Assembly: GCA_933822405.4 (NCBI GenBank)
Contig: CAKOGP040001869.1
Span: 888,816 to 952,815 of the forward strand
Source of the DNA: Cylindrotheca closterium
Taxonomy: Eukaryota > Bacillariophyta > Bacillariophyceae > Bacillariales > Bacillariaceae
DNA: 64,000 nucleotides
Direction: 5' to 3'
Under the pieces are notes generated by a model. The model made no database searches. It saw only the letters and a list, made by a program, of their open reading frames with translations, and was not told the DNA's origin. Positions 7,012 to 34,378 of this stretch are shown in pieces (position 1 is the stretch's first letter; every line of letters starts with the position of its first letter). A program made the position numbers and the translations under genes.

Positions 7012-10000
7012 CTATGATGACTCAGATTCAGCCAACTCCAATCCCATATCTATTCCCATGGCAATCAACTTGGAAGCTTCGTTTTCCGAATTTGCCGTGA
7101 TATGAAGACGATTCAGATCTGAATGTCTGGCTTCTTCCACAAGAATCTTAAAGAACATGAGCAGCGTAGTGTCATAAGTGGCTCCGTCCATCTTGGTAGT
7201 CAAAGTTGGGAAAGCAATCGAGTGAACTTGAGAATGCTTTGCCAAAATGAGACACGATCGGATACATGACCGCAACATAATCTTGATGTAATGCAAGGCG
7301 TCTTCGTCGTCTACCTTGTAGTCAACATCTCTGGAAGTTGGACCAACGGCCAAGATTATGCAATGGAACAGAAGGTCATCGTAGTTTCCAGGACCGACAA
7401 TAACAGCATTTCCAGTTCCACATTTTCCAAGTCCCCATGGTGTTCTTGTGATTCCAGGAAGCGAAGAGATATCACGCTGCAAGTTTGGTCCACCAGCTTC
7501 CATCAGAGCTTTGTTTCCCTCGCTAAGTGTGACATCACAACATTCATTGGTCCAGCAGATGATGGCACCCATGTCATCACCAGGATCATACTCCAGAGTG
7601 GATTGTGGTGAGATGGTCAATTCGCAATTATGGTACTTCGATCCCATGTTGAACGAAGCAGCAACTCGTTCGTCAACCGAAAGGTGGTCTAAACTGCTAA
7701 AGGAGTTGTTAGCCAATTGCATAATCTTTTGCATTTGCTCTTGAAGGCCGGCAAGTCGATCTGTAGCTGCTTGCTCGTTCTCGTCGGGAACCGCACGCTT
7801 CTCTTGCATAATGAGACGCTTCATAGCAAGAATTTCACGCTTGATGGCGTTTCCTTCCTTGTATTGCCGTGAAGACATGGCTGTTTCAAGTTTCTTCTGC
7901 ATCTCGGCTTCTTCAGCAATCAAATCATCCAGAGTGCGGAACTGAGACTTCATGGCATGGAGTTCATTCAATACCTTATCCAAATCTAGCGCTCGCAAAT
8001 GATTCTTGGCTGCAACAGCCTTGTCTTTCTCTCCTGTCCATCTCTTGATGGCAACTTGCAAAGTTTTGGCGGAATCCACGTGGATTTCTGGTGTGTTTGC
8101 CATACCAATCAATTGAATAAAGGTGCTTGCAGGCATTTGCTTGGCTGCCTTGATGATCGATTTTGGGTTTCCGCCTCCCATGTGACCCATCAACTCCGTT
8201 CGTCGACTGGAAGAGAACTTGGTTTGATCTTGCAGCTTGGCCACTGATGGAGGCACCATCAGTGCACCGAATTCATCTGACGATTGTGCAGCAGGACAAC
8301 CATTGGGCGTAATGAATCGGGAGACTTCTCCGAATAACAGGGCTGTTGCCTTGAAATCCAAGTTCTTGAGGTAAATGGTGTCTTCCTCAGGAGGCAAATC
8401 GTCACTGGGAGTGATCAGAATGATCTTGATTGCGTTGCCAGAGTTCAGCAAATCACCCAAAAAGTCTTCGAGATTCTGGGCGGCAGCATCCGTCTCGAAC
8501 ATTCTTGTATCAATGGCGAAGAGACTCTTGCTTCCTTCCAATTCAATATTGATTCGTTCGCGACATTCAATCACGTCTCCATCTTCCCAAACGTTATGAT
8601 CGGCGTCGAGGATCTTATTAAAAAGACCGCAGAGATCACCAAACAAAGTGTCTTCTTCTGGCTTGACGTGCTCTGGTGGAGGCATCCAGAAGATATTGTC
8701 GTATTTGAATGTCTTTTTGCGGAAATCGATGTATCGGCAGACAGCGGTTGCCACAGCGGTCTTACCGCTCCCTCGTCCACCACCCAGTCGTACCACATCG
8801 TCGGCGCGAAGGGCTTCCAAGATCTCGTACATGTCAACTTCGCGTCCCATGAAATGGCGAGGCAAAGGTGGAAGGCGGTAGGAGTCATCTTCATATTCGG
8901 GATCCGAAATACCAATCTCGGGAACCGTTCGTGTGTAAAAGATTGGTACATCGTGGTAGGATTCGTCTTCTGGCTTGCGAGGCAAGAGGACGTAGCGTTC
9001 AATGTGCTTGGTGATTTCCTCCACACGAATGGCCTCTTGGGCCATGTGAAAAGCCTGCTTCAAGGACTTATTCATGGCCAAAGCACGGTACAGATTCTTG
9101 ATAAATCCGCCAGCAGCCTTGTCACGGAAAACTTCGGAGTGATGACAGCACACAACGTGTGGAACACCAGCATCCAAAAATGCCTTACCGATACGACCAG
9201 AGTGGAACGAGTTGACAACCACCAACTTGATTGGGACCTTGGAAGATGCCATTATCTTCCCGAGTGCATCCGGTTGGAGGCCATCGATGTAACCAGCTCC
9301 ATTTTCGAATGCCAACTGATCGGGATGCCCGTGACAAGAGAAATGAAGAACTCCAGCAGTTCCCTTTGAAAGGAACAATCTGAAATTGTCCAAAGTGGCA
9401 GGCTGGGCTTCAACATCGATCGCAGCATCGACCTTGGCAGCGTCCTTGGCGACGTGCCTCAAAATGTTAACCTCATGACCAAACTCATGAAGGGGAACGG
9501 CATGATGAAGACTCGAGTTGCGGTTAAAGTAGGCCAAGGGAGCGGCTTGGAAGACCATGATTCGGTCAAATTTGGTTCTGGGAGGCGCCATCTCCACGAA
9601 GGGCATCTCTTGCATTTCTGATGCAACGCCAACTTGTGGGTCAGCAGCTTTGTCGACCTTTTCTGGCACGGGAGCACTCTTTTCCACGGGTTCCACGATT
9701 TCATCTTCCAGTTTTACCTGTTTGGGGTCAGCTCCGGTGGTAATTTCCAACATGGGAGGGATACCGCCGGTTCCGCCACCTTCGCTGTATAGCTTCTCAG
9801 CCCAATCCAAAGACGATTCGGAAACTTCATCAGGTGCTGGCATCTTTTCGCCAATTGGTTCAGCGAGCGTGTCCATGGCCGACATGGAGGCTTCCACCGC
9901 AGCTTGCATGCGCTGATCTTCCTTGGATTCGTCGGTGATAATCTCAATATGCGATTGCAACAATCTCTTAATGGCAGCAATGATGAACTTGCGGTCGATT

Positions 10001-11340
10001 TGATTGTGGTACAATCCAGTGATTTCTCGTAGAGTCGAGTTGGATGCCAAACAGGCAAGCATGGCTCGGGCACCAACACTGGTAATGTCATTCTCACCCA
10101 ATCCCAACGTTTCAAGGGACATATTGCTGGCAAACATCCGAGCCAATTGAATGGCACCCTCATCTCCAATACCGTTCCATCCCAAAAAGAGATGCTTCAA
10201 GTTGGTACGATCAACATTCCGAATCATTCCCTTGGCGATAGCTTCCACCCCTTCATCGTGAATAAAGTTTCCCTCCAAATTAAGAAGCTGGAGAGACGAG
10301 TTGGAAGCAAAAAAACTTCCATCATCAGGGTCCCAAATCTCATTGTGGGCAAAGTTCAACATTTTAATTTTGCAATTTGGATTGTCCCGAAAGGCGTGCA
10401 AGGTGGAAGTAGCTCCACGGCTACCAATTTGATTCTTGGACAAATCCAGTTCCGTCAAATGCTTAGACTTTTTGAACCATGCCGCCAACGAGACAGTTCC
10501 GCGGTTCCCCAATCGGTTGGCCCGAAGCGAGAATCGTTCAATCGGAGCCACAGTATCGTCCCGCGCCAATCCATTGCCCAGAACTTCAATTTCATTGTCG
10601 TTCAACTTGCAGTTCTCTAGAATGAGTGTGTTGAGAGTACTGGCAATACCAAGAGAATTGACCAACTCGGTAATGTGAACATGATGCAATTTGGTCGAAC
10701 TCAAATCCAACAAGGTTCCGGAATGTTCCTTCAACAAATGCTGCAAGGACAAGCGGACCTTGGAGTTACTCGTCATGGCCGATCCCACCGATCGATCATC
10801 ATCATCTCTCGATATTCTAGAAGAAACGGAACCGCTGGCACTGACCGTCGATCGCGTGGACGACCTTGATTTGCTACTTCTGGATGATTTGGAAGAGAAT
10901 CCAGTCAAACCATCAAAGTCATTGCCCTTTTTTTTGGAGGAGGAACTTCCACCTTTCTTTTTCTTTTTTAGGAGACGAGACTTGACACCCATCTTTTTGA
11001 TTGTGGAATTAGAAGCCAAGGAAATAGTCTCAGCAATGCTGTCTGCATCTTGACCTCCTGGTCCAATTTCTCCCAACAATCTACGGGCCTGATCCAAAGT
11101 AAAGCATCCCGGTTGTACGCAATATCCCTTGTAGACGACGTATCCACCGTCCGACTTGCTTTCTACAGTGAGGCTTTTCCATTGATTCTTCTTCACGAGC
11201 TTGAACTCGCGCTTGTGCGTTTTGGTGGTTCCACAAAGATTGCACAAACCATTCTTCCGGCAGTACTCTTCGAATTCTTCTCCGACCATTCCGAGATCAC
11301 CGCCTGCCATTTGATCGTACAATTGATCACCGGTCGACAT
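7012..11340 (-). CDS. LRR-CHAT-STAND-UVR-macro protein, copy 1 (CHAT Cys lost, Walker A intact)
   Basis: A single uninterrupted ORF of 1442 residues starts at ATG. In order it shows: Cys module C27-x5-C33-x2-C36-x37-C74-x4-C79 (probable zinc site); Lys/Ser-rich linker about 118-185; RNI-type leucine-rich repeats about 200-470 (LxxLxLxxNxIxxxGA); a CHAT domain about 593-790 beginning RIMVFQAAPLAYF with HFSCHGHPD (His670); a STAND/NB-ARC-like domain from about 829 (HFMGREVDMYE, Walker A GGRGSGKT with K860 and T861, Walker B LFAID); UVR-like helices about 1120-1200; and a macro-like domain about 1240-1442 (IICWTNECC, AGGPNL, GTGNAVIVGP, AVGP, SIAFPTL). The position of the CHAT catalytic Cys is Phe712 (VVVNSFHSG), so protease activity is not expected. 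An NLR-like sensor role is inferred from the architecture; no family of this exact order is known to me. Confidence 0.88.
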   Translation of the reverse strand: MSTGDQLYDQMAGGDLGMVGEEFEEYCRKNGLCNLCGTTKTHKREFKLVKKNQWKSLTVESKSDGGYVVYKGYCVQPGCFTLDQARRLLGEIGPGGQDADSIAETISLASNSTIKKMGVKSRLLKKKKKGGSSSSKKKGNDFDGLTGFSSKSSRSSKSRSSTRSTVSASGSVSSRISRDDDDRSVGSAMTSNSKVRLSLQHLLKEHSGTLLDLSSTKLHHVHITELVNSLGIASTLNTLILENCKLNDNEIEVLGNGLARDDTVAPIERFSLRANRLGNRGTVSLAAWFKKSKHLTELDLSKNQIGSRGATSTLHAFRDNPNCKIKMLNFAHNEIWDPDDGSFFASNSSLQLLNLEGNFIHDEGVEAIAKGMIRNVDRTNLKHLFLGWNGIGDEGAIQLARMFASNMSLETLGLGENDITSVGARAMLACLASNSTLREITGLYHNQIDRKFIIAAIKRLLQSHIEIITDESKEDQRMQAAVEASMSAMDTLAEPIGEKMPAPDEVSESSLDWAEKLYSEGGGTGGIPPMLEITTGADPKQVKLEDEIVEPVEKSAPVPEKVDKAADPQVGVASEMQEMPFVEMAPPRTKFDRIMVFQAAPLAYFNRNSSLHHAVPLHEFGHEVNILRHVAKDAAKVDAAIDVEAQPATLDNFRLFLSKGTAGVLHFSCHGHPDQLAFENGAGYIDGLQPDALGKIMASSKVPIKLVVVNSFHSGRIGKAFLDAGVPHVVCCHHSEVFRDKAAGGFIKNLYRALAMNKSLKQAFHMAQEAIRVEEITKHIERYVLLPRKPEDESYHDVPIFYTRTVPEIGISDPEYEDDSYRLPPLPRHFMGREVDMYEILEALRADDVVRLGGGRGSGKTAVATAVCRYIDFRKKTFKYDNIFWMPPPEHVKPEEDTLFGDLCGLFNKILDADHNVWEDGDVIECRERINIELEGSKSLFAIDTRMFETDAAAQNLEDFLGDLLNSGNAIKIILITPSDDLPPEEDTIYLKNLDFKATALLFGEVSRFITPNGCPAAQSSDEFGALMVPPSVAKLQDQTKFSSSRRTELMGHMGGGNPKSIIKAAKQMPASTFIQLIGMANTPEIHVDSAKTLQVAIKRWTGEKDKAVAAKNHLRALDLDKVLNELHAMKSQFRTLDDLIAEEAEMQKKLETAMSSRQYKEGNAIKREILAMKRLIMQEKRAVPDENEQAATDRLAGLQEQMQKIMQLANNSFSSLDHLSVDERVAASFNMGSKYHNCELTISPQSTLEYDPGDDMGAIICWTNECCDVTLSEGNKALMEAGGPNLQRDISSLPGITRTPWGLGKCGTGNAVIVGPGNYDDLLFHCIILAVGPTSRDVDYKVDDEDALHYIKIMLRSCIRSCLILAKHSQVHSIAFPTLTTKMDGATYDTTLLMFFKILVEEARHSDLNRLHITANSENEASKLIAMGIDMGLELAESESS

Positions 11341-11382
11341 ATTGTTTTTGGAGTGTAACAGAAACTATCCTACGCGAGTGTG

Positions 11383-11417
<35 letters not shown>

Positions 11418-12150
11418 TGTGGATGATTCAATCAATCCAACAAGATGGAGTTTGATAATTGAGCTAGGTTTTCAATGTGTTCCAAGTGGATTCTTTTTGA
11501 AATATAGCAATAAAGGACACTTGAGAACTATGATGAGCCAAAAAAAGTAATACACAATCAAGCTGAAGCTATTGCTTGGCTGTTGAATGGAAGCTTCGTC
11601 TTCCACACGGCACTCGATATCCTGGACAGCACCACTTTCAAACGAACATGATGGAGGTTCGAATGAAAAAGGCTTGCCTTCCAATCAACGATAAATAGTC
11701 ATGTCTTATACGTGTCAGTTTACTAAATACGATACCCCGCATGCGTTTAAAATTTTATCTGTCAGGCTCGTCATCACTCGCTAAACCTGTGAATGACCCG
11801 AATGACCCATTGTTTACTTCCGTTAGTCCATCTTTCAAATTTCTACCTACATACTCAAATAAAAATAAATGAACCAAATCCTCCGACTTGTTGTTGGTTC
11901 CTAGTGTAGATCTTGATCCTATTCATGGATTCGTTCATTCATGATTCCTTCATTCGATGTCTTTCGTGCAAAGCAACGATGATGACCGAGGACCCACCTC
12001 GCTCGTCTTCTTCATGGTGTACAGCTCATCGTTCCTGCTTTCATTCTTGGTCCTCATACAGTAGTATCCATCCCATGATATCAGCTCTGAACAAATAGCA
12101 TCATCTGATTCAGAGTCTTGAAAGTATTTACATATTATACGTCCATGTCT
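11341..12150. other. Intergenic with GT microsatellite
   Basis: This 810-bp stretch lies between two minus-strand genes and holds the promoter of the LRR-CHAT copy 1. A (GT)n run of about 33 bp at 11384-11416 lies 45-75 bp upstream of that start codon. A 70-codon ORF at 11472-11684 (minus) has no supporting features. Nothing else was recognised. Confidence 0.5.
11384..11416. repeat. (GT)n microsatellite
   Basis: An uninterrupted GT dinucleotide run lies in the 5' flank of the minus-strand gene that starts at 11340. Confidence 0.9.
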
Positions 12151-13251
12151 TCATGATGATACCAACAAGAGATACTTGGCGAGCAACTCGAGCTCCTTTT
12201 CGGTCAAATAATCCAATTCCTGCTGCAATGATAGTTGACTCTCATCGTCCTTTTCGCTGTTCGTCGATTCATTCTCCAAGAGCAATTGACAAAACACAAT
12301 GGGATCCCAACATTTCTCTGGCACATGGACGTCTCGAAATTTGCCTCCTCCCGCAATAATGCTGTGAATGACTGTTCCAGCAGCACTTTTGTTGTCATCA
12401 GCATCATGATGTTTGGATGCTGTTGTCCCTGGTGGTGATGCTTGTGCGATGATGCCTCTCGATACGCAAATTGGTGCCTTTTTCAAGGCTAATTGACACA
12501 ATTCTTGATAGACCTTGGCCAGAACACCAGTTGAAGTTGGAATTCTTGCTGCATTTTTGTTCATTATTTTCATTTCTCGTGCCATGATTGGTTCCTGGTA
12601 CTGTTTGGGACCTCCTGCACACCAATATTGAGCATTTTCGTACCCCGTATATCCACCTTCTCCAACCCTCGACCCTTCGTAGATTCGATGAATCAAGGAA
12701 TGCAAAACATCTTCCAAATCGGACAAGGGATGCTCTTGGGCCCAATTCGTTTGACCCCGATGAGTGGCCGCATATTCCGCATCTTTTAAGTTGTCCAGAG
12801 TGGCACCCAACAAGACATCATGTGCTGCATCACCATGTCCGGCAAGCAAAAGCAATAATGCTACCTGTGCCTTGGTATCGTCGTTATCCTTATTATTAGA
12901 TAATTTTCGTTGGACCATTTCGTGACAGGAATCATCAGAAGCCATATTATTATTATTATTATTATTATTAATATTATTGTCATCCGAAAGACTCCGCAGA
13001 GCCGATGTGCCGTGAATCATTATGGGATATTCCAAAGGATGTACATTAGCAGCATATTTGTCTACAGCAACAGTCACCCCATGGGCTTTGAATGCGTTGG
13101 CCACCACCGAATTCAAATGCCATGATAAGGCAATGTTGTTGTTGTTGTTGTCACGTGATGGATGACGACCATTGGAACCTGATGGAAAGAGGAATAAGGC
13201 AATTGTGGCGCAAAACAATAGCTGACACCAGGGCTTTTGATGATGCATCAT
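12151..13251 (-). CDS. Secreted or ER protein of unknown function
   Basis: The ORF encodes 366 residues and starts at ATG. Residues 1-28 form a signal peptide (a short basic/His N-region, then LLFCATIALFLFPSG). A microsatellite-encoded poly-Asn stretch (about 93-105, from AAT/ATT repeats at 12942-12975) sits in a low-complexity region. The rest is mostly helical with several Cys (the WCAGG, ELCQ, PICVS, KCWDP and FCQLL contexts). I recognise no family. It is divergent from the ubiquilin gene at 13622. Confidence 0.65.
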   Translation of the reverse strand: MMHHQKPWCQLLFCATIALFLFPSGSNGRHPSRDNNNNNIALSWHLNSVVANAFKAHGVTVAVDKYAANVHPLEYPIMIHGTSALRSLSDDNNINNNNNNNNMASDDSCHEMVQRKLSNNKDNDDTKAQVALLLLLAGHGDAAHDVLLGATLDNLKDAEYAATHRGQTNWAQEHPLSDLEDVLHSLIHRIYEGSRVGEGGYTGYENAQYWCAGGPKQYQEPIMAREMKIMNKNAARIPTSTGVLAKVYQELCQLALKKAPICVSRGIIAQASPPGTTASKHHDADDNKSAAGTVIHSIIAGGGKFRDVHVPEKCWDPIVFCQLLLENESTNSEKDDESQLSLQQELDYLTEKELELLAKYLLLVSS

Positions 13252-13621
13252 GCTTTTTCAATCATTTGTCAATAATGAATGAATGAATGAATGAATCAAT
13301 AGATTAATGAAGCATGCAGTTAGCTGAAAGATCTTTCTTTTTGGTATTGTGTTTTCCCATTTTGCATTTCGACCAGAGGAGAAAGAGAGAAGAGGAGATA
13401 ATGAGTCAGTCATGCGAATCAATCGAATCTGCTCTTTGTGCTTCTTTTTCCCGTTGAATCAATCGCAGGAGAAAATGGAAAACTGCTTCAAACTTCAACT
13501 GTTGATTGATTGACTGATTGATTTTAATTGCCTGTCTTGATAAGAAGAAAGAGGAGTCAGTCAACCAGTGCCTCCTTCACCACCACCACCACCACCAACA
13601 ACAACAACCAGTGTATCAACC
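13252..13621. other. Divergent intergenic region with GAAT/GATT microsatellites
   Basis: These 370 bp separate the secreted protein gene (minus) and the ubiquilin gene (plus). A (GAAT)n run lies at about 13273-13296 and GATT repeats at about 13502-13523. The in-frame sequence upstream of the ubiquilin ATG from 13568 begins with GTG and encodes poly-Pro/poly-Thr; it is most likely 5' UTR. Confidence 0.5.
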
Positions 13622-15520
13622 ATGAGTACTTCTTGGACCTTGACCATTCGCTTGTCTAGCGGTGAACGCATGAATGTTTCGGTTGCTTCCAGTGCCACTG
13701 TGTTGGACACCAAACTGGCGATTCAATCTTCCAGAACAGAATATGAGGCAACTCGACAACGATTGGTTTACAAAGGAAGAATTCTAGATGATGACAGCCT
13801 GGGACTAGAGCACTATGGAGTGGTAGATCAAGCTACCCTCTTTCTTGTAATGAGCAGCAGCGCCAGCGGAAGTTCTCCTCGAGCAGGTGGAGCGAGTTCT
13901 ACGGCCAACGCATCTTCCTCTTCGACAACAGCAACGGCAACAACAACGCGGCCACCCACTTCAGCTCCTGCCAACAACAACAACAACAACAACAACAATA
14001 GCAATAGCAATGGCAATCCATTCATGAATCCCTTTGGAGGCAACAATGCGGGCGGTTCGGGAGGTCTCGGTGCCATGGGTGGAATGGCTGGCATGATGGG
14101 AAACAACCCTCCGAATGCTGAACAAATGTCCCAAATGATGAACAGTCCCATGATGCAGTCTTTAATGGAAAACCCTACGATGATGCAGACCGCCATGGAA
14201 ATGAGCATGCAAAGCAATCCTCAGCTTCGTGCCTTGCTGGAGTCGACTCCGGAGCTTCGGCAATTGTACAATGATCCGGCCCTGATGCGGCAGGCCATGC
14301 AAATGATGCGGGATCCTGGTGCCATGCAACAGGCGATGCGATCTCAAGAATTGGCCATGTCTCAATTGGAAAACATGCCCGGAGGCTTTTCTGCATTGAG
14401 CAGCATGTACCGGAACATTCAAGAACCGCTCATGGAGGCACAAGATGCCGCCCGAGACAATTCGACTGCCTCCAATGCTAGTCCGGCGTCGACTACCGAA
14501 GGGGCTACTGGAGCTGCCATGCCCAATCCATGGGGAGCTCCGGCACCAGCGCCCGCTGCCTCTCCACGATCTAGTCCTCCAATGACGAACAACAACAATA
14601 TGGCCATGTCCAATCCTTGGGCATCCCCTGCCTCTTCTAGCAGCACTGGTAATAACAGTAGCAGCAACAATAATAATACTGCCATGGGCAATCCATGGGC
14701 TGCCATGGCTGCCGGAGGTATGGGTGGTGGTGGTGGTGGCATGCCCGGAATTCCTGGCATGCCCATGGACGGCAGTCCCCCCAACATGGATCAAATGATG
14801 CAAATGTTGGAAAATCCCATGGTGTCTCAAATGATTACCAACTTGGTGGATACGAATCCCGACATGATTCGTGCCATGCTCGAACAACAAAATCCTGCCA
14901 TCCGACAAATGTTTGGAAATGATACGGAACGGGCCAATCAATTCATTCGGCAAATGATGAATCCACAGGCGCTCCGCAGCATGATGCAAATGCAACGTAG
15001 CATGGGTGGTGCTGGTGCTAATGGCATGGGTGCTGGTATGAACAATATGGGCATGTTTGGCATGCCACCCATGATGGGAGGAGCTAATGCTGGAGCTGGT
15101 GCTACTGGTGGTGCGGCTCCGAATGGATTGGACTTTAGCAGTCTGCTGGGCAACCAAGGTGGTGCCAGTGGTGTTGGTGCAGGTGGTTTTCCACCCTTGG
15201 ACTTTGGTAGCCTAATGCAACAATTTCAAGGTATGCAACCACCTACAACATCAACGATGAATCAACAACAACAACATCCAGCCGATCGGTATCGATCCCA
15301 ACTGCAATCGTTGCGGGATATGGGCTTTGATGACGAACAATCATGTCTGGCAGTACTGCAACAGAATAATGGAAATCTGAACCGAGCCGTGGATCAATTG
15401 CTCATGGGACCGCCACCAAGTGTGGCTTCGCCTCCGGCAGCTGCTCCAGCACCAGCTCCTCCTGCAGAGGAAGCACCACCATCCGAGCCCAAGGATGCCG
15501 AGGACAAGAAGAATGATTGA
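13622..15520 (+). CDS. DSK2: Ubiquilin/DSK2-like ubiquitin receptor (UBL-STI1-UBA)
   Basis: ATG at 13622 gives 632 residues; the frame is open further upstream but only with a GTG. A ubiquitin-like domain occupies residues 4-76 (TLTIRLSSGERMNVSVASSATV, RLVYKGRILDDD). STI1-type Met/Gln/Asn-rich repeats follow (about 180-290 and 395-470, with SLMENPTMM, NPQLRALLES, NPDMIRAMLEQQNP). A C-terminal UBA domain lies at about 558-600 (LRDMGFDDEQSCLAVLQQNNGNLNRAVDQLL). The family shuttles ubiquitylated clients to the proteasome and shields membrane-protein segments. Linkers contain poly-Asn and poly-Ala, and three NPW motifs (NPWGAP, NPWASP, NPWAAM) between the STI1 blocks; these are unusual for ubiquilins. 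The gene has no intron. Confidence 0.93.
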   Translation: MSTSWTLTIRLSSGERMNVSVASSATVLDTKLAIQSSRTEYEATRQRLVYKGRILDDDSLGLEHYGVVDQATLFLVMSSSASGSSPRAGGASSTANASSSSTTATATTTRPPTSAPANNNNNNNNNSNSNGNPFMNPFGGNNAGGSGGLGAMGGMAGMMGNNPPNAEQMSQMMNSPMMQSLMENPTMMQTAMEMSMQSNPQLRALLESTPELRQLYNDPALMRQAMQMMRDPGAMQQAMRSQELAMSQLENMPGGFSALSSMYRNIQEPLMEAQDAARDNSTASNASPASTTEGATGAAMPNPWGAPAPAPAASPRSSPPMTNNNNMAMSNPWASPASSSSTGNNSSSNNNNTAMGNPWAAMAAGGMGGGGGGMPGIPGMPMDGSPPNMDQMMQMLENPMVSQMITNLVDTNPDMIRAMLEQQNPAIRQMFGNDTERANQFIRQMMNPQALRSMMQMQRSMGGAGANGMGAGMNNMGMFGMPPMMGGANAGAGATGGAAPNGLDFSSLLGNQGGASGVGAGGFPPLDFGSLMQQFQGMQPPTTSTMNQQQQHPADRYRSQLQSLRDMGFDDEQSCLAVLQQNNGNLNRAVDQLLMGPPPSVASPPAAAPAPAPPAEEAPPSEPKDAEDKKND

Positions 15521-16777: not shown

Positions 16778-17374
16778 CTTGTTGTGGGTAGGGGAATGTT
16801 GGGTGTTGGCGATGACTGAGAAGGAATCATTTACACTTGCTATGACGAAGAATAATACGTCGTATGGTTTTATACTCCTTGACTTTTACAACGACTATAA
16901 TCCAAATTCATTGTTTCGACTTCTATCAAACTACTATACACATGCTCAATTGACAAAATTTATGGGTTGCTTCTTAGGCGGCTAAGAATGACCACAGCCG
17001 GTTAATAGACAACAAGACACATCCAGAGCATGTCGAATTCTTTCTGACCATGATGTTAGGATAAACTTTTTCACCAAGTTAGACTTCAAGCATATGTAGC
17101 TATTGCAACTACAAGAAAGTTTCTCATTGGATATTCCCAAGCATTACAGAATCGATAGATTGCTTTTCTCAGTCAGAAGACGACTCTTTCGACTACTAAT
17201 TTGAAAAGTATCTTCCTGAACAATCCAGAACCAAATCCGAAATAGGTCAAAGCCACTCCATCGAGAACACTTCCACATCAATCATAACTTGCAATCGAGA
17301 CAAACACAAACAAAAAAACACTTGTTTATTTCACTGATCTCTTTTCGGAACTTTATACCCGCACCACTAACATT
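16778..17374. other. Intergenic between tandem FMN reductase genes
   Basis: Its first part resembles the sequence downstream of copy 2 (shared 'catgtcgaattctttctgac' type stretches at about 17031 and 18267), and its last part resembles the sequence upstream of copy 1. This places the duplication junction inside this spacer. No separate gene was seen. Confidence 0.6.
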
Positions 17375-24659: not shown

Positions 24660-27600
24660 TCATAGTTCATAGGTTTTTGCAGATAGCCGTTGATAGCCCA
24701 TCTCGGTCATGAGTCCTGCTAACAAGGCAGCTTCATTGGGCGAAGAGGCCATGACTTGGTATTGCTTGACGGTGCAGAATTGGGCTTCTTCCACCAGGGT
24801 TTGCAATCCCATTTGGACCGTTTCGTGATAGGCCTTGCCTGTCTTGCGGGTAGTCAAGATATTCAATGCCAAGGCTTGTAAGCCGGCGTGTCTCGCGAGA
24901 ATCAAGGTGGACCGGTAACTCGATCGCAACATCATTTTGATATGATGTAAAATATCCGTGTCATCGTCGACAGCATCTTCCGAGTTGTGTGGTGAGAGTG
25001 GGCCCACGGCCAGAATCAAGCACGGAGTTCCCAGCTCGCCATACTTTTCGGGTCCCACAATAACAGCGTTACCAGTTCCACAGCGGACTGGACCGTGTCC
25101 AGTCTTTGTCACAATGGGAAGGCTTTCAATGTCATTAACCAAAGCGGGCCCTCCCTTTTCCAACAACTTGTCATGCATGGGATTTCCACCCAACGCACAG
25201 CTTTCATTGGCCCAAACCACAACGCCATTAGCAGTATAGGTAGGCTGGAAGTCATAGACTTCACCAACTTCAATCACAAAGTTGCATTTGGTACCGTCTG
25301 CGCCTTCAATAACAAAAGTCACGGCTTCATCCAAATCTTCCAACCTGACATCTTCGATCATATTCTTGATTTGCAGTTGGACTTCATCCATTCGATCGGT
25401 AGCTTCGCCTGCCGAATCTCCGTTGTTGTTTGTTCGCTCCCGGCTAATCTTCTTCTTGAGTAGCAACATCTCTTTCTTGATGTTGGCGGCTTCGTCATAA
25501 TTCTTGTTTCCAATAGCTTCGGCGAGGTCCGCCTTGAGAACCTCCTCTTCCATTTTCAATTCTTCCAAAGTTGGGAACTCTGGACGCATCTCTTCAATCT
25601 CCTCTATTATTCTATCCAAATCCAAAGCACGAAGATAATTTCGTTCCTTGATGGCGGCAGTCTGCAATCGTGTCATTTTCTCCAGAGTCTTTTCCAGAGC
25701 CCCTAGCGTCCCGACATGCACTTCGGGTATGTTGGCAATCTTGATGAGTTCGATGAAGGCTTTTTTGCTTTGGCCCTGCGCAATAGCAACGGTTGCTGCC
25801 GGGATGCCGCTCCCCATACGAGCATACAAGTCGGACCTACGTTGTGATACCACAGAGGATGGCATGGATACCCGTGTGATAAACGGTGGCTCGGCTAGTT
25901 CGGCAAATTCTGTAGCTGTGTGAGCGGCTGGACAACCACTACTCGAGATAAAGTTGGAAATGCCTCCGTACAGTTTGGCAGTGGACCGAAAGTCGAGGGG
26001 ACTGATTTCAAAGCTCGCCTCTTCTATCTTGGAACTCGATGAAATCATAGAGTTCCCAGAGAGAGCGGAAGGTGTTTCACCCCCCGACATGACCTTGATG
26101 ACCTTGGCTGCAGACGTATTCATTAAGTGGCTCAGAAAACTTTCGAAACCAGTTTGCGCACCAGCAGAAACAAAGGATATCAAGGAATCATCGACAACCA
26201 ACAGAGGCTTCATGTTCTCCATTTCAATATCTATTCGATCTCTGCATTCCATCAGGCGCTCATTCTTATCCCAGATGTCTTCTGGAGCATCCTGCAATGT
26301 AGAAACACATTGGCATAGGTCACCGTACAGAGAATCTTTCACGGGGACGACTCCAGGCATGGGAGGCAACCAGAAAACGCCATCAACACCAAAGGCTTCT
26401 GAACGTAGAATAGCATAGTCCGCCAGGGCTGCAACGACGCTTTCTTTTCCATGTCCAGGGGGTCCATTAATACGGACCATGTCTTCGGCTCGAAGAGCTT
26501 GTAGAACATCATATATGTCAACTTCACGACCCACAAAGTGTTTCGGCAGCTTGGGTAATTGTGGTTGCTTTTTCCAAAATCCAAGAGGACTTTGAGGAGG
26601 CATGCCAGCAAAGAAGACTGGAACCTTATGAAAGTTTTCCACTTCGTCCATTTCTGGCAACAAGCGAAATCTCTTTGAGAGATTTCGTTTATTGGTGGCA
26701 TGCATGGACGCGGCAACTGCCTTTTTTGCGCTTTCAAAGGCTTGAAAAAGGGTCAGATCTCGTGCCAAGGCCTGGTAAAAGGTTTGGACAAACTCAGACG
26801 CCACTGGATCCTGAAAATTGTCTTCCCGTTCACAGCAGACCACATGCTTGACACCCGCCTTGACAAACGCCTGTCCAATCGAATGCGCATGGCAAGACGA
26901 AACGAACACCGTGTGCAAATTCGAACCATTGACGGCCACTAACTTGGCAAGACCTTCATGCGGTAGAATATGCAGCGAACCAAACCCATTTTCCAACGGT
27001 ATGTAATCCGGATGTCCGTGACATGAAAAGTGAAGGACTCGATTATCCTTCTCTTGCAAGAAACTACTCAGATTGGCTGGTGTTGCCGTCTTGATGGAAA
27101 CTTCAATTGTTGAATCCACAGAAAATGAAACCGATTGGGCCACTACCATTTCTTCGTCTCGATAGTCTATCAACGGAATCCCTCGATGTGCTCCTGCTAT
27201 CTTGTCAAAGTAGGCGAGTGGAGCACTTTGAAAGATTGTCAGCCGATCTACTGGCAAATTGGGATCTCGCTTGGGGGACTTTTTGGGACTCCTCGTGCCA
27301 TTCATGGATGTTATTCCATTTCTGTCATTTCGCAATGGTGACATGGGGAATCCATCGGGTGTTATTTGCGATGGCACCGAGCTGGCAATGCTGGGTGCAT
27401 ACGAGAGCGTCCCAAATCCAACATCTCCTGACACGGCACTTTCATCTTCCGGAGGGAATTGGGGTTGTTCGGGTTGCGGTTGTTTGGGTGCCGGTCGAGC
27501 AATAGACACCCGTGGTGGAGGAGCCGATCGCACTGGTTCCATAGGATTATCTGGTTGCCGCCGCCTCTTGGCTATTCGATCGGATGCCAAAAGCAACCGC

Positions 27601-28943
27601 CGAATGGCCACCACAATGAATCGTCGATCTATATTATTCCTCCACAATCCCGAAATTTCCGATATGTACTTGTTGGTGTCCAACGCTAATAACAAGGCCT
27701 TGGCCCCTGGATTCCCAATGGCATTCTCAATCAGTCCCAAATACGTCAGCGTTGTATTCCTTTCCAAAACATTGGCCAGAATGATAGCCCCATCATCCCC
27801 AATCGAATTGAACCCCAGATATAGTCTCTCGAGAGTACTATTCGTATTCGATATAATCCCCTTGGCGATCGACTTGACTCCTTCGGCATGTATGACATTC
27901 CCCTCCAAGTTCAAGACACGAAGCGTTCTGTTTCTGGTAAGGAAGGTCTTGATTCCAAACTGATCTTCGTCCAAGTCATAAATTTTGTTATGGCTCAAGT
28001 TCAAAGCAACAATTTTGGTTAATGGATTCTGAGAAAAGGCCTTGAAGATCTTGACCGCACCCATGCTGCTGCATTCATTCTTGGAAATATCAAACTTTTC
28101 CAATGTACTCGAAGTCTCCAGATAATTGCAAATGGACTCCAAGCCCGAATCCCCAATCTTGTTTTCTGTGAGATACAGTTTGGTAAGAGTCATGTCACTG
28201 GCAGCCTCCAATCCTCCTCCCAACAATACGGCTTGCTCATCATCGAGCAAACAATTTTCGAGCATTAGAGTCCGCAAAAAGGTATTCTCTTCAAAAAACG
28301 AAACCAACATGCGCATGTCCGAGGTCCGAATGGCCACTTTACTAAGATCTAATATCGTGATGGATTCATTGCTTGACAATTCTCGAATCGTTGCCTGAAC
28401 AATCGAGAGTGGTATCCGATCGTCCACATGTTTTGGATTCTGGCGGAGTTCCTCCTTGAGTTCTTCCGTGGGGAAACGATGTTCTTGTGGTGGCGTGAGC
28501 GAAAAGACGGTATCATCGTCTCCCAATGGATAACTGTCATCCGCACTGCTCCATCGTTTGGGATATCGCGGTCGTTGAGCATGCTGCGTTCCGTTGGTGG
28601 AAGTAATCCGTCGGACTTGATCCAATGAAAAACAACCTTCGCTCAAACAATACCCCTTGTAGACTTTGTATTTGCCCGTGGTCCTCGATTTGACCGTCAA
28701 GTTTTCCCATTTTGATTTCTTGAACAATTTAAAAGCCTTGCGTTTGATTTTGACGCGGCCACAGAGTGGACACAGCCCGCGTTGGGAACAGAATTCTTCC
28801 AATTCTTCGCCATACAACATGTGTCCACTTTTGATTCGAACTCCGTTGCTGTTCTGAGCCATTTCTTGTTTGGCTTGAACCAGAGACTCGTGAGACATAC
28901 GCCGCTCCATATTGTCGGGAGCTATGGCTTGGCCTGTCGCCAT
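24660..28943 (-). CDS. LRR-CHAT-STAND-UVR-macro protein, copy 2 (CHAT dyad intact, Walker A altered)
   Basis: An intron-free ORF of 1427 residues starts at ATG. The Cys module has the same spacing as copy 1: C52-x5-C58-x2-C61-x37-C99-x4-C104. RNI-type leucine-rich repeats span about 170-450, then a Pro/Ser linker. The CHAT domain (about 567-765) has HFSCHGHPD with His642 and VFVSSCHAHS with Cys684, the two expected catalytic residues 42 apart, so this copy should be a cysteine protease. The STAND domain starts at about 802 (HFVGREVDIYD); its P-loop reads GPPGHGKE, with Glu834 after K833 where Thr/Ser is normal; Walker B LLVVDD is kept. UVR-like helices (YDEAANIKKEMLLLKKK) and a macro-like domain (VVVWANESCALGGN, KGGPAL, GTGNAVIVGP, AVGP) end the protein. 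It is head-to-head with copy 3. Confidence 0.9.
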   Translation of the reverse strand: MATGQAIAPDNMERRMSHESLVQAKQEMAQNSNGVRIKSGHMLYGEELEEFCSQRGLCPLCGRVKIKRKAFKLFKKSKWENLTVKSRTTGKYKVYKGYCLSEGCFSLDQVRRITSTNGTQHAQRPRYPKRWSSADDSYPLGDDDTVFSLTPPQEHRFPTEELKEELRQNPKHVDDRIPLSIVQATIRELSSNESITILDLSKVAIRTSDMRMLVSFFEENTFLRTLMLENCLLDDEQAVLLGGGLEAASDMTLTKLYLTENKIGDSGLESICNYLETSSTLEKFDISKNECSSMGAVKIFKAFSQNPLTKIVALNLSHNKIYDLDEDQFGIKTFLTRNRTLRVLNLEGNVIHAEGVKSIAKGIISNTNSTLERLYLGFNSIGDDGAIILANVLERNTTLTYLGLIENAIGNPGAKALLLALDTNKYISEISGLWRNNIDRRFIVVAIRRLLLASDRIAKRRRQPDNPMEPVRSAPPPRVSIARPAPKQPQPEQPQFPPEDESAVSGDVGFGTLSYAPSIASSVPSQITPDGFPMSPLRNDRNGITSMNGTRSPKKSPKRDPNLPVDRLTIFQSAPLAYFDKIAGAHRGIPLIDYRDEEMVVAQSVSFSVDSTIEVSIKTATPANLSSFLQEKDNRVLHFSCHGHPDYIPLENGFGSLHILPHEGLAKLVAVNGSNLHTVFVSSCHAHSIGQAFVKAGVKHVVCCEREDNFQDPVASEFVQTFYQALARDLTLFQAFESAKKAVAASMHATNKRNLSKRFRLLPEMDEVENFHKVPVFFAGMPPQSPLGFWKKQPQLPKLPKHFVGREVDIYDVLQALRAEDMVRINGPPGHGKESVVAALADYAILRSEAFGVDGVFWLPPMPGVVPVKDSLYGDLCQCVSTLQDAPEDIWDKNERLMECRDRIDIEMENMKPLLVVDDSLISFVSAGAQTGFESFLSHLMNTSAAKVIKVMSGGETPSALSGNSMISSSSKIEEASFEISPLDFRSTAKLYGGISNFISSSGCPAAHTATEFAELAEPPFITRVSMPSSVVSQRRSDLYARMGSGIPAATVAIAQGQSKKAFIELIKIANIPEVHVGTLGALEKTLEKMTRLQTAAIKERNYLRALDLDRIIEEIEEMRPEFPTLEELKMEEEVLKADLAEAIGNKNYDEAANIKKEMLLLKKKISRERTNNNGDSAGEATDRMDEVQLQIKNMIEDVRLEDLDEAVTFVIEGADGTKCNFVIEVGEVYDFQPTYTANGVVVWANESCALGGNPMHDKLLEKGGPALVNDIESLPIVTKTGHGPVRCGTGNAVIVGPEKYGELGTPCLILAVGPLSPHNSEDAVDDDTDILHHIKMMLRSSYRSTLILARHAGLQALALNILTTRKTGKAYHETVQMGLQTLVEEAQFCTVKQYQVMASSPNEAALLAGLMTEMGYQRLSAKTYEL

Positions 28944-29920
28944 ATTGTTGGTATTCGTATTTGGAATGGATGGAACAATGGTGAATTCCGGTTTTGAGGT
29001 TGTTGTTTCGTTGTGGTGGCCAAGAAGGAAACAGTTGCTCTCTCAATTTGTGGAACTAGAAGAGATCAGTCTCGCTCAATCACAAGCCAACTTGATCAAT
29101 GAGGAACACAACTGGTATGAAAGGGAAGGGGATGAAACAGAGCTTTGCAGTGGCTTCCGTAGATGATGATTCACTTCGTATTGGTTTCTCCTCCCCTAAT
29201 CTCTTGTGTCTTGAGCTCGTCAAACACATGCGCGAGCTACATCAGCCGTGAAACGGAAGCTTTTCCTTTGCTGCTTATTTGCTTTGGTGACTTTTGATTG
29301 GCGTATGATTGCCGCATTCGGATTTCATACTTATTGAAGTTGGAATAATGTTAAACAATCGATAGATTCACGCGCGCAAGAGATATGTATCCGACTGATT
29401 TATTGTGCCGTTTTAGTCGACCACAAACGACTGCTTGCTCCGGGTTACATAGTACACCACAAAACTAGCTCAGTTCCAAACAGTCACAGTCATTCCAGAA
29501 AATTTCCATCGACCGACACAGTGCGTAATACCGGTGGATGGACAGGCATGTCGTCACACTATTCAGTAGGGCCTAACGCTTTCCGTATTGGTGGTCATCC
29601 TCGCAATTTTGGAAAACTGAAGGAGCGGTGGTGCGACGAAACGAGGGCAAGCAAACGTTGTAGTTGCATTGGTGTTTAGGTCTCTCTATATAGACACACA
29701 CGCAGTCACGCAGAAGCTGATAAAAGGCAGAAAGACAAGTCAACAACTTTGGGAAACTCTTTCTTGGTGGTGAAGAAAGAAAGAAAGAAAGAAGCAAGCT
29801 AACAATATTTCTGAAGAGTCATCCTGAAACAGCGTTCGTTCGTATTGGCTCTTTTACTATTCGAATCGCTTCCGTATTGATTGATTGATTGACTGACTGC
29901 GAGTTCGCTAAACAAACAAA
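28944..29920. promoter_or_regulatory. Shared divergent promoter region of LRR-CHAT copies 2 and 3
   Basis: These 977 bp separate the start codons of two paralogous genes facing away from each other, so both promoters lie here. Towards copy 3 a TATA-like TATATA occurs at 29687-29692; a (GAAA)n run follows at about 29773-29793, and a GATT repeat at about 29878-29895. No ORF with features was found. Whether the two genes are co-regulated is not shown by the sequence. Confidence 0.5.
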
Positions 29921-32900
29921 ATGGCAGAGCCAGAGGCACAATCGTCAACGAATCCAGAAAGCTCCAATGGCTTCCCAGTAGTCTCCTTTCTGGAAATTGA
30001 AGGCCGTGTCCTTTCAGGGGAAGAGTTTGAGGAGTATTGCAAAGACCACGGACTCTGCCGACGTTGTGCCAATGTTCGCACGCATCGACGTGTCATTAAA
30101 CTATTTGGAAGAGGCAAGAAATGGGAACCCATGACATTGCACGATGAAGAAACTGGAGAATACAGCGTCTACAAGGGATATTGCCTCAAACCCAATTGTT
30201 ATACCTTGGGACAAGCCAAACGCTTGACGGGGGAGGCTGGCACCAAGGACTCTCGGGACAAGCGCCGCAAAAAACTCAAAATGAAAATGTTGCGCAAGTC
30301 CGACAAGAATCGCCCCGAACGGCGCAAAACTCGGGCGGATCCGGAAACGGGAAGTATCATGAGTACCATGGACGATGATATGTCCATCATGTCTGGCATG
30401 TCGGATTTGAGTGGAATTTCCAGTGCTTCCGGCCGATCCTCAAGGAGTTCTCGGAGTGGCTTGTCAGGAATTGCCAGTACCTTTCGCAAAAAGAAGCGAC
30501 GGGGTTCTGGCTTTTCTCTCACGGATTCTGTTTCCAGTTTTACGGACTTTTCCGATGACGATACCATTGATACTACCCAAACTCCCATGCCATTGAAACC
30601 CGTAGTCCCTGGAGAAGTCAATCCTATCATCTCACAACGTCTCGAGCAATTGGTAAAGCATGATTACTTTGCTGTCCTAGACATGACCAAGGTGGAATTG
30701 AGACCTGAAGATGTGGATGCGATTGTTGCGGCCATGGGACAAACCAAGACCTTGGATACCATTGTCTTGAACAAGTGCCGATTGCGGGACGATGGTTTGA
30801 TCAAGATTGCGAACGCCCTTGAACAAGCCAATCACATAAATATCCGATCCTTTAGCTGTCGACAGAACCGTATTGGAAACAAGGGAGTCACGGCTCTGTC
30901 CTTTTTGTTTTCCAAATCCGAGACGCTGGAAACCTTGGATTTGTCGGAAAACTCGATCAGTAGCAAGGGTGCAGCCAATATCCTTTCGGCGTTTTCGTCC
31001 AACCCCAAGCCAGTCTTGAGTAACTTGAACCTAAGTCAAAATGAAATTTGGGACATGGACGATGGTTCGTTCTTGCGTTCCAACACCACTCTCAAGATTT
31101 TTAACCTCGATGGAAACTTTATGCACGACGAAGGAGCGGAGCAAATTGCCAACGCGATTGCTGCCAACAAACAAAGTGTCATTGAAAAGCTGTACCTAGG
31201 ATGGAATGGAATCAGTGATGATGGAGCGATTGCACTGGCTCGAATGATGGAGGCCAATGAGACTCTGCAAGTCTTGGGACTGGCCGAGAATGATATCAGC
31301 AATACGGGTGCCAGAGCCATATTAAGTGCCCTGGCCATCAATACCAGCGTCCGTGAGATTTCTGGTTTGTACCACAACCAAATTGATCGCAAATTTATCA
31401 TTGTGGCAATCAAGCGACTACTTCATCGTTACGGCGAACGTACAGGACAAGCTCCCCCCACTGAACAGGCCGCTGACGAGGGCGAGACCTCGGATCATTC
31501 GGTCGGCTGGGCTCAGCAAATCTATTCGGACGAACGTCACTTTGATGAAAAGGAAGAAGAACAAGATCAAGGGCCTAGCATTGCATTGGAAGCCATTGAA
31601 CATTGGGACTGGGGTACCTTTGGAATTGAAGAGATTGAAGCTTCGAGAAGTCCACCCTCAGCGGTCATGCCGGACGTGCCGGATAGGGTACCTTCCCCAG
31701 CAGTGGAACCTGAAGCCACCAAAGAGGTTGAACCCGAAGAACTTGTTGAGGTCGCTCCCAATTTGCCAATAGATCGTTTGACGGTGTTTCAATCAGCACC
31801 ACTAGCATACTTTGATCGAAAAACATCGGAGCATATTGCAATTCCCATTTTTGATTTCCAATACGAGGCGGATGCCATTGAAGATGCTCTGGCAAATCCC
31901 GAAGCCTTGGGAGGTGTCATTGAACTGAATGTGGAAAATGTCACAGCTGGACGATTCAAGGTTTCTTTCTTGCAAGGAACCTCGCCCATTATGCACTTTT
32001 CGGGGATTGGTCATGATAGCTGTTTGGCTTTGGAGAATGGATTTGGTTACATGCAAGCGCTGCCAACCACTGATTTGATGCGATTTGTCAAGAATGGAGA
32101 AGGCAAGGTCAAGGTAGTGGTCGTTCACACGTGTTACGCTCGAGCCATGGCTGATGCTTTTATTGAAGCTGGTGTTCCACATGTGGTCTGTCTTCAGCGA
32201 GACACTGCCTTCCGGGATGAAGGACCCGTCGAGTTTGCCCAGGCCTTTTACACTGCCTTGGCCAGCCACAAGACTTTGCAGCAAGCCTTCAACGAAGGTG
32301 TGGATACTGTCAAGCGATCAAGCAATGTCAAGGTGACTGGTAACATTGCCCAGCAATACTGTCTTCTGCCCGAAAAACCAGCCAATGATCCATACCACAA
32401 TGTTGACGTATTTTACCAACGGCCAATGCCAAAATTGTCTCCTCCACCGGAAGTCTTTTCGCCACCTCTTCCCGAAGTTCCCGAACATTTTGTCGGCAGA
32501 GAAGTCGACATGTACGAAGTCTTGGAATCATTGCGCGTGGACGATGTCGTCCGCGTGGGCGGTGCCGTCGGATGCGGAAAGGCCAGTTGTATTTCCGCCG
32601 TTGCCCGGTACATTTTGGAACGGCCGAAGTCTTTCAAGATTGATTCCGTCTACTGGCTTCCAGCACCCGAGTCAGCCGAAAAGGAGGAAGATGAAATATA
32701 CGAAGATCTTTGTTTCTTGATCGAAATGACGATAAATTCAGAGGATCAAATATGGGAAGAACCAGAATTCGCGCAAAGAAGAGATCGGGTGACTTCTGCA
32801 CTAGCCGATATGCGAAGCATTCTTGTCATTGATGGACGAATGTTCACCACAGAAGCCTCGGGAGAGAATTTGGAAATGATTCTAACTCATCTGTTGAATG

Positions 32901-34378
32901 AGGTCAGCATGAAGATTGTCTTAATCACTGCCATGGAGGCATCCAAGTCTTCCAAGACCAAGACGTCTCGACAAGAAGAAACCATGGTCAATATTGGTCC
33001 TCTCGATCTGAAATCATCAGCTCTGCTCTTTGGAAACTTGAGCGAGGTGATCTCAAGGTCTGGAAACCCGATTGTACACACTGCAGAAGAGTTCGCCGAC
33101 TGCATTGTTCCACCGTCAATTGCGAAAATAGCATCTTCGGACGAAAAGCAGAAATTGGAATCAAATCGTAGCAACAAACTATACGAAATTCTTGGAGGCG
33201 GAAATCCAACCGAGATTGCAAAATCGGCTTCTGCCTTCACGGAAATTGACCTGCGAAATTTGCTGCGGTTTGCCAAGAGGCCCGAAATCCAAGTTGATTC
33301 CGGCGCTGCCCTGGAAGAGGAGATTTTGAAGTATACCACGTTGAAGAAGAAGGCCATTGATGGAAAGAATTATGCCCGAGCTTATGACTTTACCGATGCG
33401 ATAGAAGAATTAGAGGGTCTGCGGCCAAAATTCCCAAACGTTGAAGATCTTGCCAAGAAAGAGGCAGAATACAAGGAGAAGTTCAAGAAGTATTTAAAGA
33501 TGAAAAAGTACAACGAGGCAAATGCAATCAAGCGAAAGATCCTTGAACTGAAGAAGACAGCACTCAGGGAGAAGCATGCCAAGGCCGAAGACGCGAAGAA
33601 CGCAGTCGCTTTGACTAATGGGGACTCCAACGGAAAGAAAAATTTCTACGAGATCGATAAGCTCTTTTCGCAATTGCGATTAGACCAACCCATTACCGCG
33701 ATGGATGTCTCGGGCACACTATCGGATAACAGCGGCGAAGCTACACTGAAGATTCCAAGGGTGGGAGGTTTCTGCAATCTCAATATCACAATGGGATCTG
33801 TGTTTGATTTGGCATATGAGGACGGAACAAGCGGGATTGTATATTGGACCAACGAATGCTGTGATATGGCAGTTGATGACGATGGTAAAAAGATTCTTGA
33901 GGCTGGGGGAGAATCATTCCAGACAGCCATGCAGTCACTAGATGTTCAGGCCACAACTGATTGGGGCCCAGTCAAGTGCCCTACTGGTGAGGCGGTCGGC
34001 ATTGGACCGCTTTCATTTAGCACTTTGCAAGCCAAATTTGTCTTCCTTGCTGTTGGGCCATTGTCACCATCAAACGATGATACCGAATGGGATGATTCGG
34101 ATTTGAATGGAATCCAAATCTTGGAAACTGAAATAAGGGCGTCGTATCGCTCGTCTCTGCAACTCATTGCGCAGACAGGTGTCAACGATGTCGGCATACC
34201 TACACTGACGTCAAATCCAACGGGAAATGCATATGAAAGAACGCTGTGGATTGGATTGAAGACAATAGTTGAAGAAGCCAAGAGTACGGAATTGCGTTCG
34301 ATTGATCTGTGTACAGCGTCGCATCAAGAAGCAAACCTACTGCTCAAAATGGCACTGGCATTGGGTTTGTCTGTATGA
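29921..34378 (+). CDS. LRR-CHAT-STAND-UVR-macro protein, copy 3 (CHAT His lost, Walker A altered)
   Basis: An intron-free ORF of 1485 residues starts at ATG. The Cys module is C40-x5-C46-x2-C49-x38-C88-x4-C93. A basic linker and Ser-rich stretch (about 108-200) precede RNI-type leucine-rich repeats (about 235-510). The CHAT domain (about 619-815) keeps Cys738 (VVVHTCYARA), but the His position is Ile696 (HFSGIGHDS instead of HFSCHGHPD), so catalysis is not expected. The STAND domain begins at about 856 (HFVGREVDMYE) with P-loop GAVGCGKA (K887, Ala888 in place of Thr/Ser) and Walker B ILVID. Lys/Glu-rich UVR-like helices (YNEANAIKRKILELKK) and a macro-like domain (IVYWTNECC, AGG, CPTGEAVGIGP, AVGP, GIPTLTS) follow. 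In this copy the macro loop AGGPxL has become AGGESF. Confidence 0.88.
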   Translation: MAEPEAQSSTNPESSNGFPVVSFLEIEGRVLSGEEFEEYCKDHGLCRRCANVRTHRRVIKLFGRGKKWEPMTLHDEETGEYSVYKGYCLKPNCYTLGQAKRLTGEAGTKDSRDKRRKKLKMKMLRKSDKNRPERRKTRADPETGSIMSTMDDDMSIMSGMSDLSGISSASGRSSRSSRSGLSGIASTFRKKKRRGSGFSLTDSVSSFTDFSDDDTIDTTQTPMPLKPVVPGEVNPIISQRLEQLVKHDYFAVLDMTKVELRPEDVDAIVAAMGQTKTLDTIVLNKCRLRDDGLIKIANALEQANHINIRSFSCRQNRIGNKGVTALSFLFSKSETLETLDLSENSISSKGAANILSAFSSNPKPVLSNLNLSQNEIWDMDDGSFLRSNTTLKIFNLDGNFMHDEGAEQIANAIAANKQSVIEKLYLGWNGISDDGAIALARMMEANETLQVLGLAENDISNTGARAILSALAINTSVREISGLYHNQIDRKFIIVAIKRLLHRYGERTGQAPPTEQAADEGETSDHSVGWAQQIYSDERHFDEKEEEQDQGPSIALEAIEHWDWGTFGIEEIEASRSPPSAVMPDVPDRVPSPAVEPEATKEVEPEELVEVAPNLPIDRLTVFQSAPLAYFDRKTSEHIAIPIFDFQYEADAIEDALANPEALGGVIELNVENVTAGRFKVSFLQGTSPIMHFSGIGHDSCLALENGFGYMQALPTTDLMRFVKNGEGKVKVVVVHTCYARAMADAFIEAGVPHVVCLQRDTAFRDEGPVEFAQAFYTALASHKTLQQAFNEGVDTVKRSSNVKVTGNIAQQYCLLPEKPANDPYHNVDVFYQRPMPKLSPPPEVFSPPLPEVPEHFVGREVDMYEVLESLRVDDVVRVGGAVGCGKASCISAVARYILERPKSFKIDSVYWLPAPESAEKEEDEIYEDLCFLIEMTINSEDQIWEEPEFAQRRDRVTSALADMRSILVIDGRMFTTEASGENLEMILTHLLNEVSMKIVLITAMEASKSSKTKTSRQEETMVNIGPLDLKSSALLFGNLSEVISRSGNPIVHTAEEFADCIVPPSIAKIASSDEKQKLESNRSNKLYEILGGGNPTEIAKSASAFTEIDLRNLLRFAKRPEIQVDSGAALEEEILKYTTLKKKAIDGKNYARAYDFTDAIEELEGLRPKFPNVEDLAKKEAEYKEKFKKYLKMKKYNEANAIKRKILELKKTALREKHAKAEDAKNAVALTNGDSNGKKNFYEIDKLFSQLRLDQPITAMDVSGTLSDNSGEATLKIPRVGGFCNLNITMGSVFDLAYEDGTSGIVYWTNECCDMAVDDDGKKILEAGGESFQTAMQSLDVQATTDWGPVKCPTGEAVGIGPLSFSTLQAKFVFLAVGPLSPSNDDTEWDDSDLNGIQILETEIRASYRSSLQLIAQTGVNDVGIPTLTSNPTGNAYERTLWIGLKTIVEEAKSTELRSIDLCTASHQEANLLLKMALALGLSV

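Follow-up and report, generated by a model that had tools for sequence, protein, structure and literature searches.

A 64,000-nucleotide stretch of the genome of the diatom Cylindrotheca closterium (the window: assembly GCA_933822405.4, contig CAKOGP040001869.1, here C329, positions 888816-952815; genome 47.6 Mb) carries three related genes, P1, P2 and P3, whose products join a leucine-rich repeat (LRR) domain to a CHAT domain, a probable STAND nucleoside triphosphatase (NTPase) region and a macro domain. The initial annotation of this DNA described three long open reading frames (ORFs) sharing one domain order, and locating, aligning and Pfam-scanning these ORFs confirmed it (Table 1). All three are intronless, share 37-39% mutual identity and can be aligned along their whole length, and a whole-genome search found three full-length copies, all in the window. 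P2 and P3 are divergently oriented, while the 13.3-kb gap between P1 and P2 holds several genes, one of them ubiquilin-like. The proteins are probably soluble, since no hydrophobic stretch in them reaches transmembrane strength (best 19-residue mean 1.39). Their Cys module occurs four times in the genome, three of these in the window; the ORF hosting the fourth copy (C529:486796-486993) is only weakly ARM-like further on (E 0.099).

Table 1. Window coordinates of the three genes, of the domains of P2 and of the region between P2 and P3
Feature	Position	Strand	Description
P1 (clade 1)	7012..11340	-	ORF, 1442 residues: Cys module, LRR, CHAT without the catalytic Cys, STAND, helices, macro
P2 (clade 2)	24660..28943	-	ORF, 1427 residues; build as P1; CHAT His-Cys intact (HFSCHGHPD, SSCHAHS)
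P3 (clade 3)	29921..34378	+	ORF, 1485 residues; build as P1; CHAT Cys kept, Ile in place of His (HFSGIGHDS)
Cys module of P2, residues 40-118	28590..28826	-	Model and genome search
RNI-type LRR domain of P2, residues 181-450	27594..28403	-	Pfam, model, fold match
CHAT domain of P2, residues 555-780	26604..27281	-	Matches 8tl0 SAVED-CHAT
Probable STAND NTPase region, P2 residues 790-1075	25719..26576	-	Pfam, genome search
Macro domain of P2 with lead-in, residues 1205-1427	24663..25331	-	Fold match; GGG loop lost
Divergent intergenic region P2/P3	28944..29920	.	977 bases

Pfam LRR_6 was found in all three proteins (E 5.5e-16 to 1.2e-20). CHAT (PF12770; cut-off 24 bits) scored 36.7 bits in P1 and 37 bits in P2, and in P3 it scored 22.8 bits in the protein scan and 25.3 bits in the genome search. 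Pfam Macro was above its cut-off in P1 and P3 and gave no match in P2. For the STAND region, nSTAND1 matched P2 and P3 under its cut-off (E 6.3e-5 to 7.1e-5) and P1 gave AAA_16 at E 0.13; when 33 of the 128 family proteins aligned below were scanned at E up to 0.01, nSTAND1 appeared in 27, NB-ARC in 7 and NACHT in 5. The same region directly matches proteins of the same genome whose NACHT or AAA matches exceed the cut-off, and its top rows among the sequences of solved structures were P-loop ATPases, midasin and Hsp104 among them, with a weak match to the Apaf-1-like DARK (E 0.0073).

P2 was the protein chosen for AlphaFold2 modelling, with alignments of 65 and 46 sequences. Residues 555-1427 were modelled with a predicted local distance difference test score (pLDDT) of 89.5 and a predicted template modelling score (pTM) of 0.88, and residues 1-464 with a pLDDT of 78.8 and a pTM of 0.67, the LRR blocks being mostly above 90. 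Structure comparison of the model matched CHAT, macro and LRR folds where they were expected, in agreement with the caspase-like and macro folds anticipated by the initial annotation. The CHAT-region profile also reached 8tl0 (E 1e-11), whose HFIGHG and NACC align with the His and Cys columns, so that fold and profile together place the domain in the CHAT family, as the macro fold places the C-terminal domain among macro domains. The VIA-align structure-match lists of P2 were filled by other domains, and the failure of STAND and the Cys module to appear in them was not read as absence. The helices before the macro domain had been called UVR-like; the P2 model does show four long helices, but no Pfam UVR row was returned for P1-P3 or for the 33 members scanned, and we dropped that identity. 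A match of helices plus macro domain to the SPX entries 5iit, 5lnc and 7d3y was likewise rejected (root-mean-square deviation 27-29 in Foldseek, 18-21 for two of them in VIA-align).

The LRR fold of P2 lies nearest to NLRP3, NOD2 and ribonuclease inhibitor. This likeness would suit classical NLR-like immune or cell-death receptors with the LRR as sensor of a microbe, STAND as the oligomerising part and CHAT as the protease that cuts a death effector, every gene working on its own, an explanation that we consider unlikely in view of the family-wide evidence.

To define the family we gathered 146 proteins, comprising the three of the window and search matches, each protein search having scored about 7990 candidates that shared the most words. 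Eighteen were excluded: P0091-P0104, P0143 and P0144, for which LRR families are listed and which cover 9-18% of the query, and P0089 and P0090, in which a Ser/Thr kinase is joined to a similar CHAT domain, with ankyrins in one of them. Of the 128 aligned proteins, 125 (P0088 included) entered the tree, three with no more than half of the 853 columns being dropped. The tree resolved into three clades with one window gene apiece (support 1.00, 1.00 and 0.79) plus four outgroup proteins, and an iqtree run on 54 of the 125 sequences gave ultrafast bootstrap values of 90, 100 and 100 for the same clades. P1, P2 and P3 thus represent three ancient lineages. Among the matches listed, those with an organism name (three of them looked up) come from Bacillariaceae, and the diatom origin proposed earlier is supported. 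The MMETSP transcripts include P0004, with 94% identity to P1, as well as the clade-3 protein P0061.

Mapping the active-site motifs onto these lineages revealed a division among them. The signature first given for the CHAT domain consists of real motifs but is a composite, joining RIMVFQAAPLAYF from P1 to SSCHAHS from P2, and this hid the loss of the His-Cys dyad in P1, where the Cys site reads NSFHSG, and in P3. Only P2 has both residues, and across the family they co-occur in 20 of the 125 aligned proteins (the window's three counted), so the name CHAT protease does not hold for all three genes. Four of the 20 are the outgroup proteins, which have no LRR in their Pfam lists. Fitch parsimony reconstructed an intact root, aided by the intact dyad of every outgroup protein, and loss-only parsimony counted 14 dyad losses. 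The P-loop is canonical in P1 (GGGRGSGKT) and altered in P2 (GPPGHGKE) and P3 (GAVGCGKA); its Lys is kept in 121 and the Walker B Asp in 123 of the 125 proteins. By clade, GK[ST] and the dyad are found in 41 and 1 of the 54 proteins of clade 1, in 1 and 9 of the 29 of clade 2 and in 2 and 6 of the 38 of clade 3. Clade 2 has GKD or GKE in 20 of its 29 members and keeps the dyad in P2, P0105-P0108 and four others, while in clade 3 the P-loop is mostly GKA or GKK and the dyad half kept.

The split recurs between species. In the window genome, in Cylindrotheca fusiformis and in Nitzschia inconspicua there is one match per clade (for the latter two, among the matches listed), other named sources having fewer clades represented among theirs. 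All three genomes show a dead CHAT with GKT in clade 1, an intact dyad with no P-loop Thr/Ser in clade 2 and a lost His with GKA in clade 3, so that no single member found in the three (for C. fusiformis and N. inconspicua, among the matches listed) carries both canonical motifs. That the dyad is intact in just one of the three window genes is a hint that the genes work as a single machine and not as three independent immune receptors.

Loss of the dyad in clade 1 has not left the site free to vary. By eye, 46 of the 54 clade-1 proteins carry a replacement motif, NSx[HY]SGR, at the dead site, and judging from the alignment the site is constrained, because the Cys-site segment, with a mean entropy of 0.45, comes 17th among the 195 overlapping windows of CHAT; protein-wide it ranks 99th of 1222. 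The corresponding segment of clade 2 ranks 37th of 206. We weighed these patterns against the view that the genes are tandem duplicates drifting under relaxed constraint with no joint function. Close linkage and repeated motif loss are what drift would give, but the conserved motif of clade 1's own at its dead site, together with domains 93-98% identical between P1 and P0005 against 80-89% in the linkers, makes this account very improbable.

The macro domain tells a similar story of a retained fold and a lost motif. The GG[GA] pattern was found in none of the 119 members scored (53, 28 and 38 in clades 1 to 3) and is present in three other macro proteins of the same genome. The GGG loop is the catalytic loop of MacroD-type ADP-ribosyl hydrolases; the initial annotation was thus right about the macro fold, but removal of ADP-ribose by it is not supported. 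The missing loop, the 14 dyad losses and the absence of P-loop Thr/Ser in 28 of 29 clade-2 and 36 of 38 clade-3 proteins could be taken to mean that none of CHAT, STAND and macro is catalytic, all three being interaction folds of a purely structural scaffold, and that the dyad of P2 is a leftover. We think this distinctly unlikely given the dyad of the nine clade-2 keepers, the GK[ST] of most of clade 1 and the nearly universal Walker B Asp, although a 40740-base contig with members of all three clades (P0022, P0122 and P0073), none of which has an intact dyad or GK[ST], fits it.

The lineages are also frequently linked. In eight cases members of different clades from one source lie on contigs of equal length, once members of all three, and such contigs were taken to be the same. 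On scaffold8535 of C. fusiformis, P0009 (clade 1) is gene.20 and P0108 (clade 2) gene.22, and the clade-2 and clade-3 matches of N. inconspicua both lie on a contig of 6574884 bases, again judged by equal size. Taken together, these data lead us to favour, tentatively and with less than even confidence, the reading that P1, P2 and P3 are putative subunits of one conserved NLR-like (LRR plus STAND) signalling complex of Bacillariaceae diatoms.

Several observations weigh against this proposal. Linkage would also be expected from tandem duplication, and it is incomplete: the clade-1 match of N. inconspicua is on a separate contig of 2278761 bases, showing that the cluster is not intact everywhere, and the clade-3 match of C. 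fusiformis, P0130, is on scaffold6589. Conservation of the dead site is a trait of clade 1, since in clade 3 the Cys segment comes 117th among 206 windows; even in clade 1 the His segment ranks 102nd of 195. The division of motifs has exceptions as well, since 20 of 29 clade-2 members are without the dyad, P0031 and P0066 retain dyad and P-loop together, and the 40740-base contig lacks both motifs altogether. Finally, the family counts come from related sequences and are not independent.

We then asked how fast each domain changes. Between P1 and P0004 or P0005, identity is 98% in the LRR, 97% in the Cys module, 97-98% in the macro domain and 93-95% in CHAT; between P3 and P0128 the values are 95, 97, 93 and 86%. 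Close P2 pairs, as P2 with P0105, have 85% in the LRR, 91% in CHAT and 90% in the macro domain; taking this to mean that clade 2 conserves CHAT over the LRR fails clade-wide, where mean entropy is 1.40 bits in the LRR, 1.12 in the Cys module and 1.63 in CHAT. The clade-wide means for LRR, Cys module and CHAT are 0.90, 0.98 and 1.20 in clade 1 (macro 0.98) and 0.99, 0.70 and 1.49 in clade 3, so that LRR and Cys module have the lowest mean entropy in every clade. This argues against a fast-evolving pathogen sensor. It speaks against one without proving the point, because repeat structure itself also conserves an LRR.

The same data bear on singly acting receptors, as does a related protein of the same genome, C251:456-2003, in which LRR, CHAT and NACHT (E 1.5e-9) are joined with an intact dyad, as such a receptor would have it. 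In fungi, according to PMC12881547, a TPR-bearing CHAT protease activates a gasdermin, and some NLRs carry an N-terminal CHAT placed before the NTPase, which would also fit. Set against these are a dyad broken in 105 of the 125 aligned proteins, P1 and P3 included, one member per clade with no lineage-specific expansion in the three named genomes (two of them among the matches listed), and an LRR at 95-98% identity against 86-95% for CHAT in four close P1 and P3 pairs, the LRR value being partly due to the repeat itself. A gasdermin search was empty, but it had no positive control, the control genomes giving no match either, and is uninformative. The earlier suggestion of an NLR-like immunity or cell-death system stands as to the LRR and STAND build and the caspase fold, but an immune receptor family is doubtful given three ancient lineages whose LRR and Cys module vary least.

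Comparison with known systems showed both likenesses and differences. Animal NLRs (NOD2, NLRP3) run effector-NACHT-LRR and the tripartite NLR order has an N-terminal effector, a central NOD and a C-terminal LRR, whereas in P1-P3 the LRR precedes CHAT and STAND and the macro domain is C-terminal. The fungal CHAT-NLR and TPR-CHAT proteins (PMC12881547) are alike in placing CHAT before a STAND NTPase or joining it to repeats and in forming gene clusters, but have WD40, TPR or ANK repeats where P1-P3 have an LRR in front, a C-terminal macro domain and a mostly lost dyad. The order had been called a reversal of that in plant NLRs. A leading LRR and a terminal macro domain are indeed unusual, but an effector before the NTPase is also the fungal CHAT-NLR order (PMC12881547). 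SAVED-CHAT (8tl0) is caspase-like and has SAVED where P1-P3 have LRR, STAND and macro, with the dyad broken in P1 and P3. The TPR-CHAT of gRAMP/Craspase partners a type III-E CRISPR effector and has a TPR array, for which the Pfam lists of P1-P3 contain no row at E up to 1. Macro domains of MacroD/YmdB type, like TPR-macro and other macro proteins of the same genome, share the fold and the GTGNAVIVGP/AVGP core, but P1-P3 differ from them in the lost GGG loop and the fusion to CHAT-STAND. A limited literature search, including the available parts of PMC12881547 and PMC10197012, found no description of an LRR-CHAT-STAND-macro architecture, in line with the original statement that none was known, though this is only a weak test of absence.

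Related proteins occur in the same genome. C251, C212 and C168 (the last with the order IQ motifs-CHAT-STAND) have intact dyads, Pfam CHAT above the cut-off and NACHT or AAA matches; like P1-P3 they place CHAT before a P-loop NTPase, but a Cys module was not found in them, nor, in the parts scanned, a macro match. It looks as though the family arose from a CHAT-STAND protein that acquired a Cys module and a diatom macro domain and was then triplicated. Near-duplicate ORFs on C190 and C135 match CHAT plus STAND of P2 at 25-26% identity; the C190 ORF shows a weak IQ motif and is not matched by Pfam CHAT, and next to the C135 ORF is one that by eye resembles ankyrins. About 67 kb past P3, at C329:990880-991407, a 560-residue ORF without a Pfam match has a STAND-like stretch, its P-loop degraded, that shows 57% identity to P2. 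Elsewhere on C329 (about 186.8-192.8 kb), a 1740-residue ORF combines two macro matches with numerous TPRs and, under the cut-off, a weakly RelA/SpoT-like stretch. The genome has five PARP loci, making ADP-ribosylation available for signalling.

What we infer of the assembly, trigger, substrate and activity of the favoured signalling complex is as follows. P1, P2 and P3 would co-assemble, P1 supplying nucleotide binding and a pseudoprotease scaffold, P2 proteolysis wherever its dyad survives, and P3 acting as a structural partner. The partner contacted by the LRR and Cys module may be internal and fixed, in contrast to the variable molecules of pathogens. Lacking the hydrolase loop, the macro domain could be a reader or a protein interface, and it sits in the C-terminal slot that in STAND proteins usually holds the sensor. 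The output would be cleavage of a substrate. A more specific form, which we regard as possible but somewhat unlikely, is a fixed three-subunit machine that splits nucleotide switching and caspase-like proteolysis among paralogs and uses the non-hydrolytic macro domain as a built-in sensor; we know of no NLR system with such a division of labour, and if true it would make the complex a sensor of internal state and not a pathogen receptor. As a conserved diatom branch of the NLR/STAND world, the family unites an LRR, a caspase fold, a nucleotide switch and a macro domain in a single chain, and it is a case of pseudoproteases taking over inside an NLR-like family. It also offers a testable three-gene set for how diatoms may decide death or stress responses, for which metacaspases are the usual suspects.

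Two further ORFs of the window lie apart from the three genes. Positions 53075-54436 encode a histidine kinase with a receiver domain, and positions 58504-60699 a 731-residue ORF, without a Pfam match, in which GWQFWAIG and SGWRYWS repeats alternate.

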